Below, in pieces: positions 3,710 to 11,082 of a DNA stretch of 64,000 nucleotides. The notes beneath the pieces are model-generated. The model had not been told where the DNA came from and made no database searches. It saw only the letters and a list, made by a program, of their open reading frames with translations. Within the stretch, counting starts at the first letter, position 1; every line of letters begins with the position of its first letter. The DNA comes from Persephonella sp. (GTDB lineage Bacteria > Aquificota > Aquificia > Aquificales > Hydrogenothermaceae): positions 1 through 64,000 of the forward strand of contig NZ_JALVTW010000011.1 in assembly GCF_027023985.1 (NCBI RefSeq). Direction: 5' to 3'. Made by a program: the position numbers and the translations under genes.

Positions 3710-4162
3710 TTGGATAAAAATTTTAGATTAAATGCTTTAAAACATGAGATAAACAATTTGTTTTTTAAAATAGAGACTGCCTCAGAATTATTATCAGAAA
3801 ATGAATTGTCAAATAAAGAAAGGCAGGAAGCGTTCAGAATATTAAAATCAAACATAGAATTGCTTAAAGTTCTTATTGATAATTTAATAGTTCTTGAAAC
3901 GCTGAATAAAAAAGAAAAAATAGACCTTTACGACTTTTTTGAAAAGACTGTATCAAAAAGATACATTAATGGTTATCCCAATGCTTTGAAAAGGGCTTTG
4001 GAAAATTTAAAATTTTTAGGTGTTGATTTTTACATGGAAAATGATGTTCTGCAAATAAACAGAATACCGGAAGACAAAATTTCCGGATACTTGCTTTACT
4101 TAACAGAATATTTCTTTAAATTAAACTGTATAAAAATGATACAGAAGGAAAGTGATGATTAA
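3710..4162 (+). CDS. small helical protein with HE-x-N motif, sensor-kinase dimerisation-like
   Basis: A 150-residue cytoplasmic protein read from a TTG start (AGG lies 9 bases ahead). Near the N-terminus, LKHEINNLFFKIETASELL places H12 in a pattern (H-E-[IL]-N-N) like the phospho-accepting helix of histidine kinases that use an HE-x-N box, followed by a second long helix (SNIELLKVLIDNLIVLETL) as in a four-helix DHp bundle. No ATP-binding domain follows. It overlaps the NtrC-type regulator gene, so the two are probably translated together, and it could be a kinase remnant, a phosphotransfer protein or an anti-activator. One copy of a palindrome shared with the cytochrome promoter lies inside its coding sequence. 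Function is inferred. Confidence 0.6.
   Translation: MDKNFRLNALKHEINNLFFKIETASELLSENELSNKERQEAFRILKSNIELLKVLIDNLIVLETLNKKEKIDLYDFFEKTVSKRYINGYPNALKRALENLKFLGVDFYMENDVLQINRIPEDKISGYLLYLTEYFFKLNCIKMIQKESDD
3949..3965. promoter_or_regulatory. 17-bp palindrome, copy 1 (TGTATC-N5-GATACA)
   Basis: TGTATCAAAAAGATACA is a perfect 6-5-6 palindrome located inside the coding sequence of the HE-x-N protein. The same 17 bases, with an extended 20-base match, occur at 5477-5493. The 6-5-6 layout is that of NtrC-family enhancer sites. As this copy lies within a gene it may be a distant auto-regulatory site or a decoy. Confidence 0.5.
4127..4143. promoter_or_regulatory. 17-bp palindrome, copy 2 (degenerate)
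   Basis: TGTATAAAAATGATACA differs from the perfect copies at two of 17 positions and keeps both outer half-sites. It ends only 11 bases before the regulator start codon. Its position suggests negative autoregulation or cooperative binding by the NtrC-type protein encoded immediately downstream. Confidence 0.4.
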
Positions 4163-5474
4163 GAGGAAAATACTAATTGTAGATGATGATAAGGATATTT
4201 TATCCCTTATGAGAATAAAGCTAAAAAATGAGAGTTTCCTGGTAAAAACTGAAAATTCTCCATTAAAAGCCCTTGATATAATTTCCAGTGAAGAAATAGA
4301 CCTTATTATAGTCGACCAGCAAATGCCTGAAATAACAGGTTTAGAATTCATAGAAATAGTAAAAGAACAATATCCGGAAATGCCTATAATTCTTATGACA
4401 GCCTATGGTCAAATAGAAGACGCAGTTAAAGCAATAAAAATAGGAGCACTCCATTACATAACAAAACCTATAAATTATGAAGAGCTGAAACATGTAATTA
4501 ATCAAGCCTTTGAGATAACTTCTCTCAAGGAAGAGATTAAAAATTTAAAAGATATTATTTCAGATGAAATTATCGTAGAAAGTAAAAAAATGAGAGATAT
4601 TATTGAAACCGCAAAAAAAGTGGCACCTTTTGATGCTACTGTTTTAATAACAGGAGAAAGCGGGACAGGGAAAGAGGTAATAGCAAGATTCATTCATAAA
4701 CATAGTAAGAGGGCAAAGAAATCTTTTATTGCAATAAATTGTGGAGCGATACCGGAAAATTTACTTGAGGCTGAGTTGTTTGGATACCAAAAAGGTGCAT
4801 TTACAGGGGCAGATTTTGATAAAAAAGGTCTGATAGAAGAGGCCAATGGAGGGACATTATTCTTAGATGAGATTGGGGAGTTACCACTTAATTTGCAGGT
4901 TAAACTTTTAAGGGTTATTCAAGAGCAAGAAATAAAACCTCTTGGAAGCAATAAATCAAAGAAAATAAATGTTCGTTTTATAGCAGCTACTAACAAGAAT
5001 TTGGAAAAACTTGTAAAAATAGGAGCATTTAGAGAAGACCTATATTACAGGTTAAATGTGATAAAAGTTAATATTCCTCCTTTACGAAAAAGGAAGGAAG
5101 ATATAATTCCCCTTGCACAGTTTTTTATAAAAAAATATTCCCTGAAATATGGAATAAAGCCAAAAACTTTGTCTAAAAAGGCAGAAGAAGACCTATTGAA
5201 TTATGATTGGCCTGGAAATGTTCGTGAACTTGAAAACACCATTGAGAGATTACTTTTAACAACCTCCGGAAATACCATTAGAAAAATTTTTAAAAAATCT
5301 TCAACGGTTGATAATCTGAAAAAATTTCGGGATGCAAAGGAAGAATTTGAAAAAAGGTATATAGAAAAACTGCTTGAGAAAACAAAAGGTAATATATCAA
5401 AGGCTTCACGAATTTCAGGGCTTACGAGAGCTCAGATATACAGATATATAAAGAAATATAATATCTCTTTCTAA
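4155..5474 (+). CDS. NtrC-family sigma-54-dependent response regulator
   Basis: This 439-residue protein activates transcription by sigma-54 RNA polymerase. A receiver domain (about 1-120) has the acidic pocket VDDDKD and phospho-acceptor D54 in IIVDQQMPE. The AAA+ domain carries Walker A GESGTGKE (167-174), the GAFTGA loop (214-219) that contacts sigma-54, and Walker B GGTLFLDE (232-239). A Fis-type helix-turn-helix lies at the C-terminus ([18 protein letters not shown]). I chose ATG 4155 over GTG 4152 because of its spacing to GAAGGAA. It overlaps the upstream HE-x-N gene. The next gene is preceded by a sigma-54 promoter and a palindrome, so the nonahaem cytochrome is its likely target. Confidence 0.95.
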
Positions 5475-5476
5475 AC

Positions 5477-5493
5477 TGTATCAAAAAGATACA
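5477..5493. promoter_or_regulatory. probable enhancer (UAS) of the cytochrome promoter, palindrome copy 3
   Basis: TGTATCAAAAAGATACA, a perfect 6-5-6 palindrome, begins three bases after the regulator stop codon. Its centre is about 86 bp upstream of the start site predicted from the sigma-54 promoter at 5545-5560, a normal distance for an NtrC-type enhancer. Binding by the adjacent regulator is inferred from layout. Confidence 0.6.
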
Positions 5494-5544
5494 TCTGTAA
5501 ATCCTGAATTCAAGAAAGTCATTGAAAAACAATAAATTTTCATT

Positions 5545-5560
5545 TGGAACATCTCTTGCG
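5545..5560 (+). promoter_or_regulatory. sigma-54 (-24/-12) promoter for the nonahaem cytochrome
   Basis: TGGAACATCTCTTGCG matches the consensus TGGCACRNNNNTTGCW with invariant GG (5546-5547) and GC (5558-5559) at the required 10-base gap; it departs only at the C-to-A change and the last base. The start site would be near 5571, 24 bases before the ATG at 5595, which has a strong GGGAGG ribosome site. Confidence 0.7.
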
Positions 5561-5594
5561 TTAATTTTCCCAAAAAACTTACGGGAGGAAAGCT

Positions 5595-7334
5595 ATGAAA
5601 AAAAAGCTCATGGCAGGGTGTATGGTTTTAATAGCTTCCATGTTCGTTTCCTGCGGAGGAGGCGGTGGTAGTGGAAGTGATTCTGGAAATGTAGTATTTA
5701 ATGGAGAGGATGAACACAAACATAATACATATGATGGAGATAATGGTGGGGAAAATGATAACAATGGTGGGAATACCGGTGGTGGAAACACAACTCCGGC
5801 AACAGGAGATTATATCGTAGTTGCATGGAATGACCTTGGAATGCACTGTATAGATAAAGATTTTTCTGTTTTTTCTATTTTGCCTCCTTTTAATACGATT
5901 AATGCTCATGTAATTAGAAGAGGTCATGAACCTGAAAAACTTTCAGATACCTCTGTTAAAGTTTTTTATCAGGCTCAGGCTGATTCAGATGGCACTATAA
6001 ACTCAACAAGCGTTGGAAAAACAAATTTCTGGGATTATGTTCAGAGCCTTTTTGGTGTTAATCTCCAGCCGGATGTGGGTTTAAAAGGTTTCCACATGGC
6101 GAGCACTATACCCTATAAGATGAGTTTTCTGAGTAAATATAACATATTCCAAGCAGAAGGAATACCGGCAACTCCCTATGATGATAACGGAACAAAAGAT
6201 GAATATCCTCTTGTTAAAGTTGTTGCGCAAGATTTAAATGGGAATGTCCTTGCAGAGACTACAACAGTAATGCCTGTAAGTGATGAAATGACATGTATTG
6301 CCTGTCATGGTTCTAATTCAGGTAATACAGAGGCTTTACCTTCTCAACCTGTTAATGACCCGAATCCAGAAAAGGATTATCGCTGGAATATACTGAGAAA
6401 ACACGATGAAAAACACAAAATCTCTCAAAATATGCTTAATCAGCTTGCAAATAAAGGATATTATTATCAATCTTCTTTAGAACAAACTGCAAGAAATGGA
6501 ACACCTGTTTTATGTGCAGCCTGTCATAAATCAAATGCTTTACCGGGTTCAGGTATTAACGGTGTGCCTCCATTAACCCAGGCAATACACTCAAAACATG
6601 CCAGACCAGTAGCAAATACAGGAAAGACAGGAAGAAATGCCTGTTATATGTGTCACCCCGGTTCACAAACCCAGTGTCTAAGAGGCGCTATGGGTAATGC
6701 CCATGTTGAGTGTCAATATTGCCATGGAACAATGGCAGATGTTGGAAGTTCTTCAAGGGAAGGATGGTTTGATATGCCCAAATGTCAGCAATGTCATCAA
6801 GGAGGACATAGATACAAAACGGTTTTCCAAAACGACATAATAGGTGGTTCGTTAAGAACAGTTGTTGATAATAGATTTGCGACACAACCAGACACTCCTA
6901 TACCTGGAAAATCCCTTTACAGATTCAGTAAAGGTCATGGAGGTCTTCAATGTGAAACTTGTCATGGTTCTCCACATGCAATATATCCTTCAAGCTTAGC
7001 AAAAGACAATGTTCAGATACAGGCACTTCAGGGATATAAAGGAACACTCAGAGAATGTGCAGTATGCCATAAAAATCAAGTTCCTTTAACTGCGGATGAA
7101 GGTCCTCACGGTATGCATACAATAGGACAGGCATGGGTAGATAAACACGGTGGATACGTGGAAAAGAACGGATACAATATGTGTAAAGCGTGCCACGGAA
7201 CAAATCTAAGAGGCTCGGAACTTTCTGAAGTAAAAACCTCAAAATCCTTCAATACAGAATGGGGAACAAAAACTTTCAATACAGGACACGCAGTCAGCTG
7301 TTATGACTGCCATAATGGTCCTAATGGGGATTAA
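5595..7334 (+). CDS. nonahaem c-type cytochrome lipoprotein
   Basis: A 579-residue exported electron carrier. The signal peptide ends in a lipobox (FVSC, lipidated C20), followed by a Gly/Ser/Asn/Asp-rich linker to about residue 70. Residues 72-225 form a haem-free domain with the conserved NDLGMHC stretch. Nine CxxCH haem sites follow, starting at C234, C307, C350, C373, C397, C453, C488, C530 and C569. Similar proteins with NDLGMHC domains and multiple haems occur in metal-reducing and sulfur bacteria. Outer-surface or periplasmic electron transfer is inferred. It is isolated between a sigma-54 promoter and a terminator, so it is probably a separately regulated single gene. Confidence 0.92.
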   Translation: MKKKLMAGCMVLIASMFVSCGGGGGSGSDSGNVVFNGEDEHKHNTYDGDNGGENDNNGGNTGGGNTTPATGDYIVVAWNDLGMHCIDKDFSVFSILPPFNTINAHVIRRGHEPEKLSDTSVKVFYQAQADSDGTINSTSVGKTNFWDYVQSLFGVNLQPDVGLKGFHMASTIPYKMSFLSKYNIFQAEGIPATPYDDNGTKDEYPLVKVVAQDLNGNVLAETTTVMPVSDEMTCIACHGSNSGNTEALPSQPVNDPNPEKDYRWNILRKHDEKHKISQNMLNQLANKGYYYQSSLEQTARNGTPVLCAACHKSNALPGSGINGVPPLTQAIHSKHARPVANTGKTGRNACYMCHPGSQTQCLRGAMGNAHVECQYCHGTMADVGSSSREGWFDMPKCQQCHQGGHRYKTVFQNDIIGGSLRTVVDNRFATQPDTPIPGKSLYRFSKGHGGLQCETCHGSPHAIYPSSLAKDNVQIQALQGYKGTLRECAVCHKNQVPLTADEGPHGMHTIGQAWVDKHGGYVEKNGYNMCKACHGTNLRGSELSEVKTSKSFNTEWGTKTFNTGHAVSCYDCHNGPNGD

Positions 7335-7342
7335 ATTCACAG

Positions 7343-7367
7343 AGGGGCTTCCCACCTGCCCCTTTTT
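7343..7367 (+). terminator. rho-independent terminator after the cytochrome gene
   Basis: AGGGGC and GCCCCT form a six-pair GC-rich stem with a nine-base loop, followed directly by a run of five T. It lies nine bases past the cytochrome stop codon. Confidence 0.75.
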
Positions 7368-7416: not shown

Positions 7417-8412
7417 ATGAAAAGATTTCTTTTTTTATTTTTGTTTTTTTATACGCTTGCCTATGCAGAAGATATTTCTTACAAATTTGGTAGAGGTTTA
7501 AATCTGGGTAGATATTTCTGGTTTGGTGGATATATATCTTTAAATTACTGGAAAAAAAATAGTAAACATTCTTTTAAGCTGGATGATCTGGCATTTTTAA
7601 CCAGAATAAGTTTAAACAGATTTTCAATATTTTCCGAACTGGAAGCTGATGATGTATATGTATCCTCAAGCACGGAAAAAAATAGATACTGGCACATAGA
7701 ACCTGAAATAGAAAGGCTTTATGTGAACTATTACTATAATGAATTTCTTAATTTTAAGATTGGTAGATTTTTAACACCCCTTGGTATATGGAATAAAATT
7801 CATATAGATGCTTTAAAATGGACAGCATCCGACCCTTTAGTCTCAACATTTTTTTTCCCAATGTTTACAACAGGTTTAAACCTGAATGGATATCTTCCTT
7901 TTCTGGAAAGCCTCAGATATGACTTTTTTATTCAAAAGGGAAAGGGTATAAATGCCTCTTATAACAACATAAAAACAGATGATATGGTTGGTTTCCAGTT
8001 GGAAAAAATATTTGATATAAACAAAAAGATAGGATTAAACGGTGTAATTCTTGATGCAGATAATGTAAATGAAAAATATAAATTTTTAGGTGTGTATGGA
8101 AAAACAAAATTGAAAAATTATTATCTATCTTCAGAGGTTTATTATGCAAATGAAAGGAAAAAGGGTAATGTCAGACACAAAGAACACGGGAAAATCACAT
8201 ACTATGTCCAGGTAGCAAGAAGAGTATTCAATAAAACATATTTCATTTTCAGGAAAGATGGACTTTATGATAGTTCGGATAAACATCGTGTGGATATATG
8301 GACTTTTACATTAAATTTTAAGCCTAGATTTAACATATCTATGAAAGCCGAGTATCAACTTTATGAAAGGAAAAATGACTACATAAGACTATCCTTTGCT
8401 TTGTTGTTCTGA
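7417..8412 (+). CDS. porin-like outer-membrane beta-barrel protein
   Basis: A 331-residue exported protein. The signal peptide (hydrophobic residues 3-16) ends in AYA before Glu-Asp. The rest is rich in alternating aromatic/polar strands typical of a barrel, and contains IGRFLTPLGIWNKIH, a strand-turn pattern found in phosphate-selective-porin-like proteins; it ends in a strand with terminal Phe, as expected for an outer-membrane protein. The stop and the next start overlap (TGATG), tying it to the PstS-like gene. A TATAAA lies about eight bases before the ATG and no clear ribosome site is seen. It could admit the ligand sensed or used by this operon; the substrate is unknown. Confidence 0.7.
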   Translation: MKRFLFLFLFFYTLAYAEDISYKFGRGLNLGRYFWFGGYISLNYWKKNSKHSFKLDDLAFLTRISLNRFSIFSELEADDVYVSSSTEKNRYWHIEPEIERLYVNYYYNEFLNFKIGRFLTPLGIWNKIHIDALKWTASDPLVSTFFFPMFTTGLNLNGYLPFLESLRYDFFIQKGKGINASYNNIKTDDMVGFQLEKIFDINKKIGLNGVILDADNVNEKYKFLGVYGKTKLKNYYLSSEVYYANERKKGNVRHKEHGKITYYVQVARRVFNKTYFIFRKDGLYDSSDKHRVDIWTFTLNFKPRFNISMKAEYQLYERKNDYIRLSFALLF

Positions 8413-8837
8413 TGAGAAAATTAATTTTTATTTTTATCTTTTTAATATGGAGTAATAATTCTTACAGTGAAGAAATTACTATTTATGTAGTTTCGGGAAA
8501 GCAATCAGGCTTAAGGCTTAGTTGTAGAGATATTAAGTTCGCTTACCTGAAAGAAAAGATTTTTTCAAATAATATAAAAATTATCCCTGTAAATCTACCG
8601 GCAAATAACAAACTGAGAAAGCTATTTAACAGATATGTTCTAAAGATGGATGAAGATGAACTTAGTATTTACTGGAACCAAAGATATTATGAAGGGATTA
8701 CTCCGCCTCTTGTTTTAAAATCAGAAAAAGCTATGAGAAATTTTCTAAAAAGCGTGAAAGGTTCCATAGGATACCTTACTAAAGAATATTTAGATAAAAG
8801 CTTAAAAATTTTATGTATTATCAGGGCAAAAAGATGA
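8412..8837 (+). CDS. small PstS-like periplasmic substrate-binding protein
   Basis: A 141-residue exported protein whose signal peptide ends near NSYS before Glu-Glu. The body follows the phosphate ABC-transporter substrate-binding (PBP-like) family: ITIYVVSGK at the N-terminus, YWNQRYYEGITPPLVLKSEKAM near residues 90-110, and a final VKGSIGYLT strand. It is about half the length of full PstS, as in the single-domain relatives often found beside sensor kinases and porins. The gene overlaps the porin gene upstream and the response-regulator gene downstream, so a sensory role for phosphate or a similar oxyanion is plausible but not shown. Confidence 0.65.
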   Translation: MRKLIFIFIFLIWSNNSYSEEITIYVVSGKQSGLRLSCRDIKFAYLKEKIFSNNIKIIPVNLPANNKLRKLFNRYVLKMDEDELSIYWNQRYYEGITPPLVLKSEKAMRNFLKSVKGSIGYLTKEYLDKSLKILCIIRAKR

Positions 8838-9160
8838 AAAAAGTTCTGATTATAGATGATGATGCACATAATAGGTTCTTACTTAAACTGATTCTTCAAA
8901 AGGAAAATTTATCTGTTGTAGAAGCAAAAACAGGGAAAGAAGGTATAGAAAAAGTCCTGAAAGAAAATCCAGACCTTATTTTACTTGATGTTATGATGCC
9001 TGATATTAATGGCTATGAAGTCTACAAGAAGATAAAAGACAAAAATATTCCTATTATTTTCCTAACAGCTTCAGAAGATAATGAAGAAGACGTAGACTAT
9101 ATTTTAAAACCCATTGATATAAACAGGCTGATAACAAAAATAAAAGAGAAATTAAGATGA
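8834..9160 (+). CDS. single-domain response regulator (CheY-like receiver)
   Basis: A 108-residue stand-alone receiver. The acidic pair is in LIIDDD, the phospho-acceptor is D52 in LILLDVMMPD, the switch threonine is in IIFLTAS and the lysine in ILKPID. No output domain follows, so signalling would go by protein contact. I prefer ATG 8834, which overlaps the previous stop as ATGA, over the in-frame ATG at 8813 that would add seven residues. Its own stop overlaps the sensor kinase start (ATGA), indicating translational coupling; the kinase is its likely partner. Confidence 0.88.
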   Translation: MKKVLIIDDDAHNRFLLKLILQKENLSVVEAKTGKEGIEKVLKENPDLILLDVMMPDINGYEVYKKIKDKNIPIIFLTASEDNEEDVDYILKPIDINRLITKIKEKLR

Positions 9161-11082
9161 GTATCAGAACAAAAATATTATTAGCATTGCTTTTTTTAGG
9201 GCTTCTACCTTACGGAATAACAGGATGTTTTATTTTTAGGTATGGTGAAAATCTCCTTAAAGAAAATATAAAAAATCAGCAAATACAAAATATAGAGCTT
9301 GTTAAGAAAAATATAGAAGACTACTTTTCTTCCATAAGTAAAAATCTCCTTTTCTGGTCAAAAGCTCAGATTATGGACGATATTGTTACAGGTGATATGG
9401 ATAAAAGAATACAGATATTTTTAGACCAGATAAAAAGAAACTATAGGATAAAAGGCGATATATTTGTTGTGGATAAGAAAGGTAATGTTATTGCTTCTAC
9501 CAGAGAAGGAAGTTTCGGAAAAAGTATTTCAAAGTATATAGAAAATAAAAATATTTCTATATCTTTTGATATATATGCGTCTTTTCACAAGGAAAAAATA
9601 GGGAAAATAATATACACCTTATCTCCTGAAAATTTGAAATATTTTCTTTTTTCCAGTTCTATAGCATCACTTTCTGTTTTTGACCCTAAAACAAATCAAA
9701 ATATTGGGTTTATAAAAAATATTCCCCAAAAATATAACTATGAAAATGACAAATACCTTTATATTTTTGAGAAATTCAAAGAAAAACCTTTGAAAAACTG
9801 GTTTCTTGTATCTAGGATAAATAAAAATATAGCTTTCTTCCCTTTAAAAAAGGTTGAAAATTTCTTTTTCCTTGTGTTTTTTAGTGGTTTTGGATTAATA
9901 GTCTTTCTTGCTTTTTATCTATCAAAAAAGCTTGTAAATCCTATGAAAAAAATTGCTAATACAATGGAAGATGTTGTAAGAACCAAAAACTATTCAAAGA
10001 GGTTTTTTTATCATGGAGATGACGAAATAGCCATTTTATCAAAAGCATTTAACTATATGCTTTCAGAAATAGAAAAAGCCCTAAATACTATAAAAGAGGA
10101 AAATAGAAAAAGACTTGAACTTTTTAGTAATCTTATTGAAATTTTCAGTAAAATTACAACTTTGCAAAATGAAAAAGAAGTGCTTAATGTTGCTGTTGAG
10201 GAACTAAAGAAATTTTTCAGTGATACAAAAGTAAGTTTTTTAGAAAAAGAAAAACCATTTTCAGTAAAAATTGAAACGGAAAAGGTTAAAGGTTATCTTG
10301 TTTTTGAAACAAAAAGAAAAATTTCCGAAGAAGAAAAGAAGTTTTTTGTATCAATAGGAAATCTTATAGGTTTACTTATAGAAAAAGTAGAACTTTTGAA
10401 TAAATCTCAGGAAGCCTCAAAGGCAAAATCAGCGTTTATATCAAATATGTCTCATGAACTGAGGACTCCGTTAAATAGCATAATAGGATTTTCCCAATTT
10501 TTAAAAATGGAAGAAAAGGACAAAACTAAAAAGGAAGCATTAAATAGTATAGAAACTTCAGGAAAACATCTCCTTGAAATAATAAATGATATTCTTGAGT
10601 ATGCAAAAATAGAAGCCGGTGCCGTAAAAATAAATAAAGAAAAATTTAATGTAAAAGAACTATTTGAAGAAATTAAACAGATAATAAAACCTCTATCAGA
10701 TGGGAAGAATCTTGAGCTTGTTTTTCCGGATAGGAATATTGAAGTCTATACTGATAAAAAACTATTAAAACAGGTTTTGATTAACCTACTTTCTAATGCT
10801 GTCAAATTTACAGAGAAAGGAAGTATAAAGGTTTCCGTCTGGACAGAAGGAAATAAAGTGTTTTTTTCTGTAAAGGATACAGGAATAGGTATTAGGGAGG
10901 AGGACATTCCAAAAATATTTAAAAATTTTACCCAGCTTGAAAATCCTTTACAGAAGAAATATAAGGGAACAGGTCTTGGACTTGCTATTACCAAGGAATA
11001 TGTCTATCTGTTAGGTGGAGAAATAAAAGTTAAAAGCGAAGGTATAGGAAAAGGTTCAGAGTTTATTTTTTATATTTCTTAG
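9157..11082 (+). CDS. membrane sensor histidine kinase (HAMP, GAF-like, HisKA, HATPase)
   Basis: A 641-residue inner-membrane kinase. TM1 (about 7-28) and TM2 (about 236-256) enclose a periplasmic sensor of roughly 205 residues. A HAMP linker follows (about 257-310), then a GAF-like region (about 325-415), the dimerisation helix with H433 in SNMSHELRTPLN, and the ATPase domain with N-box near 540-555, G1 DTGIGI (574-579) and G2 GTGLGLAI (604-611). The start overlaps the stop of the receiver gene, and the operon includes a porin and a PstS-like protein, suggesting that a small solute is sensed. It may also phosphorylate the NtrC-type regulator upstream, which has no complete kinase next to it. 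Confidence 0.93.
   Translation: MSIRTKILLALLFLGLLPYGITGCFIFRYGENLLKENIKNQQIQNIELVKKNIEDYFSSISKNLLFWSKAQIMDDIVTGDMDKRIQIFLDQIKRNYRIKGDIFVVDKKGNVIASTREGSFGKSISKYIENKNISISFDIYASFHKEKIGKIIYTLSPENLKYFLFSSSIASLSVFDPKTNQNIGFIKNIPQKYNYENDKYLYIFEKFKEKPLKNWFLVSRINKNIAFFPLKKVENFFFLVFFSGFGLIVFLAFYLSKKLVNPMKKIANTMEDVVRTKNYSKRFFYHGDDEIAILSKAFNYMLSEIEKALNTIKEENRKRLELFSNLIEIFSKITTLQNEKEVLNVAVEELKKFFSDTKVSFLEKEKPFSVKIETEKVKGYLVFETKRKISEEEKKFFVSIGNLIGLLIEKVELLNKSQEASKAKSAFISNMSHELRTPLNSIIGFSQFLKMEEKDKTKKEALNSIETSGKHLLEIINDILEYAKIEAGAVKINKEKFNVKELFEEIKQIIKPLSDGKNLELVFPDRNIEVYTDKKLLKQVLINLLSNAVKFTEKGSIKVSVWTEGNKVFFSVKDTGIGIREEDIPKIFKNFTQLENPLQKKYKGTGLGLAITKEYVYLLGGEIKVKSEGIGKGSEFIFYIS

Follow-up and report, generated by a model that had tools for sequence, protein, structure and literature searches.

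The locus described here raises two linked questions about the control of surface electron transfer in the Aquificota: which protein reads the palindromes that lie in and around an NtrC-type regulator gene of Persephonella sp., and how might phosphate reach that protein? The window, i.e., the whole stretch of DNA analysed (64,000 nucleotides of contig NZ_JALVTW010000011.1), holds a cluster whose genes all lie on the + strand in the order DHp-only protein, NtrC-type regulator, nine-haem cytochrome, porin-like protein, PstS-like protein, receiver and histidine kinase (Table 1). An original prediction, made from the letters of the window, tied three copies of TGTATC-N5-GATACA to a sigma-54 promoter for the cytochrome and proposed a small regulon in which the regulator also controls itself. 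It overlooked the DHp phosphotransferase-like protein, the kinase and receiver of the cluster, and the swapping of cargo between genera, all of which enter the argument below.

Table 1. Features of the cluster, with positions in the window
Feature	Position	Strand	Evidence or remark
DHp-only protein, 150 aa, TTG start	3710-4162	+	kinase-derived, phosphotransferase-like; overlaps regulator start
Palindrome copy 1	3949-3965		perfect TGTATC-N5-GATACA; within DHp gene, where it codes V-S-K-R-Y
Palindrome copy 2 (TGTATAAAAATGATACA)	4127-4143		one change; near 3' end of DHp gene, just 5' of regulator start
NtrC-type response regulator (REC, sigma-54 AAA+ with GAFTGA, Fis-type HTH)	4152-5474	+	Pfam matches
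Palindrome copy 3	5477-5493		perfect; directly past regulator stop codon; proposed main enhancer
-24/-12 (sigma-54) promoter element TGGAACATCTCTTGCG	5545-5560	+	elements at the same place in related loci
Nine-haem c-type cytochrome, lipoprotein-like N-terminus; regulated gene	5595-7334	+	MtrC/MtrF-like domain, E 1e-10
Terminator-like hairpin (AGGGGC, 9-base loop, GCCCCT) and T run	7343-7367	+	3' of cytochrome; read by eye
Putative porin-like outer-membrane protein	7417-8412	+	conserved neighbour in the module; no Pfam family above cut-off
Short PstS-like periplasmic protein	8412-8837	+	family profile against PDB PstS, E 6e-5
Single-domain response regulator (CheY/Spo0F-like)	8813-9160	+	Response_reg, E 3e-25
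Membrane histidine kinase (Cache-like, HAMP, HisKA, HATPase_c)	9157-11082	+	Pfam

Conservation of the palindrome and the promoter

A motif scan found both palindromes that had been called perfect (copies 1 and 3) where they were claimed to be, and gave copy 2 one change where two had been reported. The regulator gene does lie between copies; that copies 1 and 2 fall inside a coding gene, that of the DHp-only protein, had gone unremarked. Three perfect palindromes occur in the genome (1.9 Mb, 38 contigs), two at this locus and the third within a gene elsewhere. The promoter element also has the layout ascribed to it, with GG at 5546 and GC at 5558 of TGGAAC-ATCTC-TTGCG in phase, boxes resembling TGGCAC-N5-TTGC, and copy 3 centred about 86 bp upstream of a start predicted near 5571. 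Describing it as a good promoter was justified only in part: its score of 9/11 is equalled by five sites in the window, and we accept the element because it is conserved across loci rather than for that score. Consensus-perfect -24/-12 elements occur in G027, G043, G054, G071, and G084, and RpoN is encoded in the Persephonella genome. Sigma-70-like promoters were no more numerous than in shuffled sequence.

For each of 16 genomes, we took the stretch between the start of the DHp gene and the first target gene (31.6 kb in all), using both pieces where regulator and target lie apart. With at most one change allowed, this DNA contains 21 sites with a spacer of 5, against 0.04 in dinucleotide shuffles; of the remaining spacer lengths in the range 0–12, 6 has five sites, 10 and 11 have one each, and the others have none. 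Chance occurrence in AT-rich DNA might seem a reasonable explanation for individual copies, given that shuffles of the window yield about two matches when two mismatches are tolerated. The comparison of 21 sites with 0.04, together with enrichment confined to spacers 5 and 6, leaves a chance origin with a probability close to nil, and we rejected it. As a separate observation, genus g7 (G055, G029, and G043; loci L119, L123, and L118) uses a palindrome with spacer 6 alongside the one with spacer 5.

The position of the site relative to the promoter is also conserved. In 11 genomes, the palindrome lies 67–137 bp upstream of the -24 element, and in seven of these the spacing is 67, 68, 68, 69, 70, 70, and 70 bp; G051 and G054 have no good copies near the promoter. 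An NtrC-type enhancer is expected to be a dyad that precedes a -24/-12 promoter and is inherited with its regulator; this is the arrangement seen here, and the comparison across 16 genomes supports the predicted role of the palindrome as the regulator's enhancer in front of the cytochrome promoter. Judged by sequence conservation, the link between enhancer, promoter, and regulator very likely holds.

The regulator itself has orthologues in 16 of the 112 genomes of the order, spread over two families and eight genera. All 15 aligned orthologues retain a GAFTGA or GSFSGA loop and the phospho-acceptor D54 of the REC domain, and in all of them the recognition helix reads TRA[QE]IYR, from which the helices of the genome's six other sigma-54 activators differ. 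These features suggest that the NtrC-type regulator is probably the protein that binds TGTATC-N5-GATACA. Its nearest relative with a solved structure is NtrC1 of Aquifex aeolicus (PDB 4l4u, 1ny5; E 2e-112), which has identical domains; the recognition helix is PLRTLYRRL in NtrC1 versus TRAQIYRYI here, so a different DNA site is expected. On account of this helix, we also rejected the possibility that the regulator is the orthologue of NtrC1.

Exchanged cargo and separated regulators

Several genomes provide natural experiments on what the palindrome accompanies. G049 (L026) has the cytochrome but, at the cut-off applied, lacks a regulator orthologue; upstream of the gene there is no palindrome and no -24/-12 element. 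G077 and G085 carry the DHp-regulator pair at a separate locus, where its genes hold no palindrome with two or fewer changes; the cytochrome promoter of both genomes retains one. In G027, G071, G084, G095, and G106, other lipoproteins or haem proteins replace the cytochrome, and the site and promoter persist. Taken together, these cases indicate that the site follows the regulated promoter, not the cytochrome or the regulator gene.

The same genomes bear on whether another DNA-binding protein, e.g., a repressor, could recognize the palindrome, its closeness to the NtrC-type regulator being incidental. We infer binding by the regulator, and 15 perfect copies occur across 96 genomes that lack it, both of which leave some room for such a protein. 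Yet across 16 genomes the sites go with the regulator and its promoter, at an almost constant distance from the -24 element; of the 20 perfect copies in genomes that have the regulator, 17 by hand count fall within the module; and G049 lacks regulator orthologue and site alike. We consider a different binder very unlikely, and take the NtrC-type regulator as the probable reader in what follows.

The cytochrome matches its earlier description, with nine CXXCH motifs in a translation of 579 aa. Its closest named relatives by locus are metagenome-assembled genomes labelled Persephonella sp., Hydrogenothermaceae bacterium, and Aquificota bacterium. A sequence search found no relative of the nine-haem family with a solved structure. 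The family, marked by an LGMHC motif (L028-L086), also occurs in Proteobacteria, Planctomycetes, Acidobacteria, Bacteroidetes, and others. The flanks of 59 other cytochrome loci, from other phyla, contain no relative of the DHp, porin-like, or PstS-like proteins; general kinases or regulators are present in some.

At L121, L126, L118, L025, and L027, the same promoter is followed by Asp-repeat-rich surface lipoproteins with a common N-terminal domain, either in place of the cytochrome or in addition to it; no Pfam family accounts for them. In G054, dihaem proteins, DUF3570, and ApbE are among the products encoded after this regulator and promoter, and similar gene orders occur in other f2 genomes. 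The G054 genes resemble clusters for extracytosolic flavinylation containing ApbE and DUF3570 (PMC8238504), described in a paper whose main text mentions neither histidine kinases nor Aquificota.

Between the cytochrome and the porin-like gene stands the terminator-like hairpin, which the automatic hairpin scan, with its loop limit of 8, does not list. A hairpin and T run are found at the corresponding place in G043, G051, G055, G077, and G085 (L025, L116, L118, L119, and L120). Its position between the cytochrome and the sensor arm points to possibly separate transcripts: the sensor arm may be transcribed separately, from its own promoter, or through read-through.

Extent of the regulon and control of the regulator

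The expectation of a small regulon was borne out within the limits of the search, since no second palindrome with a convincing -24/-12 element turned up in the genome. Twelve other copies with at most one change were inspected: all but one are intragenic, and none has a convincing, properly placed -24/-12 element in front of a gene. One further copy of this kind, on contig C36, lies outside those 12. On the evidence of the 12 inspected copies, we rejected a wider regulon in this genome. Comparison across genomes lends good support to the palindrome, the NtrC-type regulator, and the sigma-54 promoter as a small, closed regulon.

The intragenic copies pose a different question. A single 17-base sequence, TGTATCAAAAAGATACA, lies within the DHp gene in two genomes (G000 and G057) and within the linker joining the AAA+ and HTH domains of the regulator in two others (G027 and G071), always encoding V-S-K-R-Y. 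In G057, whose DHp gene is cut by a contig end and visible as a fragment, it occupies the position that matches copy 1 (L027:10-26). The presence of identical bases in two unrelated genes implies that the DNA itself is what is conserved. Four genomes (G000, G029, G043, and G055) have a copy late in the DHp gene, just 5' of the regulator start; in the last three it has a spacer of 6 and a position similar to that of copy 2. In the second family of the order, palindromes within the regulator gene are spaced 181 and 260–269 bp apart. Two perfect palindromes also lie inside the cytochrome coding sequence of G077 and G085, downstream of the promoter (L116:3412-3428 and 4391-4407; L025:43-59 and 1052-1068).

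Copies 1 and 2 could control the regulator's own expression, either by activation or by blocking transcription, and the recurrence of a copy directly before the regulator start in G029, G043, and G055 is consistent with this idea. Against it, no convincing -24/-12 element follows these copies or precedes the DHp-regulator pair, the separately located pairs of G077 and G085 have no copy with two or fewer changes while their cytochrome promoters keep one, and further copies lie downstream, within the regulator linker or the cytochrome coding sequence. Self-control by the regulator, a part of the original prediction, is therefore unlikely. The intragenic palindromes look more like distal or extra enhancers for the downstream promoter, although those just 5' of the regulator start may have some influence on the regulator.

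A candidate phosphorelay

The DHp-only protein has the features of a kinase reduced to its phosphotransfer domain. Its match to HisKA is weak (E 2e-4), the family profile matches the cluster kinase with a probability of 91%, and H12 aligns with the kinase H box. This histidine is invariant in the 15 family members aligned, mostly in a K-H-[DE] context. None of the 15 matches HATPase_c, and the N and G boxes are absent from their alignment. HisKA is the one signaling family that Pfam detected in several members; no member matched Spo0B or ChpT. The best PDB matches are to HK853 (E 0.01–0.02). The structure model is weak (pLDDT 57), showing the helical hairpin at moderate confidence, and a Foldseek search with it returned no significant match, only weak likenesses to DHp domains among others. 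The family thus combines a conserved acceptor histidine in a predicted DHp hairpin with the lack of a functional ATP-binding domain. Among 136 genomes of the phylum, it occurs once in each genome that has the regulator and nowhere else, one-to-one with the regulator, G057 being counted by its fragment at the contig end.

The remaining components of a relay are present and appear intact. The H, N, and G boxes of the kinase are invariant among 11 orthologues, and D15, D16, D59, and K99 are invariant in the family of the single-domain receiver. An intact kinase, a receiver with an acceptor aspartate, a putative histidine phosphotransferase, and an output receiver are inherited together. The PstS-like gene and the regulator are both found in 14 genomes, only one of them in 2 and 3 genomes, and neither in 93 (Fisher p = 3e-13, phylogeny ignored); their co-occurrence also holds where the regulator and sensor arms are unlinked. 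Half of the PstS-like family (8 of 16 members) matches PBP_like_2, and the AlphaFold model of the protein has a pLDDT of 46. With PstS-like and porin-like partners, the signal could, as speculation, be a small anion or an envelope cue.

These parts suggest a path in which the membrane kinase would pass phosphate to the receiver, the receiver to the DHp-only phosphotransferase, and the phosphotransferase to the regulator, as in KinA-Spo0F-Spo0B-Spo0A. A dimer of the regulator would then occupy TGTATC-N5-GATACA and, from the site about 86 bp upstream of the predicted start, contact sigma-54 RNA polymerase at the -24/-12 element, with the extra sites inside the DHp and regulator coding sequences assisting activation. 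Firing of sigma-54 polymerase would express a surface electron-transfer gene, in this case the nine-haem cytochrome. We lean toward a four-step phosphorelay, with some reserve, as the means by which phosphate is delivered to the regulator; the direction of flow is deduced from sequence.

Ordinary two-component control would account for many of the same genes. A kinase, that of the cluster or another, might phosphorylate the regulator directly, in which case the DHp protein would be a dedicated modulator, such as a docking partner or a phosphatase, and the small receiver would serve as a phosphate sink or control a target of its own. NtrC-type regulators as a rule receive phosphate straight from a kinase, the kinase here has an intact core, and the DHp protein is only weakly HisKA-like. 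However, the regulator always adjoins a protein without an ATP-binding domain, not a kinase, and the kinase adjoins the small receiver; moreover, the DHp histidine is invariant, and the DHp protein is never found without the regulator. Direct transfer is possible but rather doubtful, and the four-step relay remains our preferred reading.

The receiver varies among loci. G039, G054, and G084 have a longer protein at the locus, which proved to be of HD-GYP type in the cases tested; G027 carries the long and the single-domain form. Receivers with a long C-terminal part (again HD-GYP where tested) stand beside or in place of the single-domain form at L121, L124, L126, L128, L129, and L130. HD-GYP-type receivers link the module to possible turnover of c-di-GMP.

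Relation to known systems

The promoter arrangement resembles that of NtrC enhancers and sigma-54 promoters such as glnA/NtrC: a 6-5-6 dyad about 86 bp before the predicted start, a REC-AAA+-Fis activator, and an element with phased GG and GC. It differs in a half-site (TGTATC) and a recognition helix that are specific to this group, and in having several copies within the coding sequence of neighboring genes. We found no precedent for the palindrome in the literature searched, and the search returned no papers on the regulation of Aquificota cytochromes.

The proposed relay has the same parts as the Spo0F-Spo0B-Spo0A system of Bacillus, namely a kinase, a single-domain receiver, a DHp-type protein without the motifs of kinase activity, and a DNA-binding response regulator. 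Unlike the Bacillus relay, it lacks a Pfam Spo0B match, ends in a sigma-54 activator, is encoded at one locus, and belongs to the Aquificota. In Caulobacter, ChpT consists of a DHp helical hairpin with a phospho-accepting histidine followed by a kinase-derived alpha/beta domain that does not bind ATP, and it receives phosphate from a hybrid kinase (PMC3433190). The DHp-only protein shares the hairpin and histidine, as judged by sequence, but has no Pfam ChpT match and, at 139–170 aa across the family, a much smaller C-terminal part. By analogy, it probably works like Spo0B and ChpT, though homology to those families was not detected. No description of a four-step relay of this kind was found in the literature searched.

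As a whole, the locus likely represents a self-contained signaling and expression module of the Aquificota, in which an enhancer switch is joined to a relay. There is about an even chance that it constitutes a four-protein relay specific to the Aquificota with an independently miniaturised phosphotransferase, enhancers placed in the coding sequence of the phosphotransferase and the regulator linker, and a one-locus switch reused across genera for different surface electron-transfer equipment.

For a thermophilic phylum in which regulatory codes have been little studied, the locus offers a testable one, comprising a site, its spacing, a promoter, and a probable cognate activator. It suggests a further origin of the Spo0B/ChpT strategy, by which a kinase is pared down to a carrier of phosphate, here feeding a sigma-54 activator, and since the proteins of a thermophile are expected to be stable, the steps of the relay should be testable in vitro. 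The conserved promoter with its swapped cargo, in turn, illustrates a way in which one surface electron-transfer system may give place to another while the controller stays fixed.
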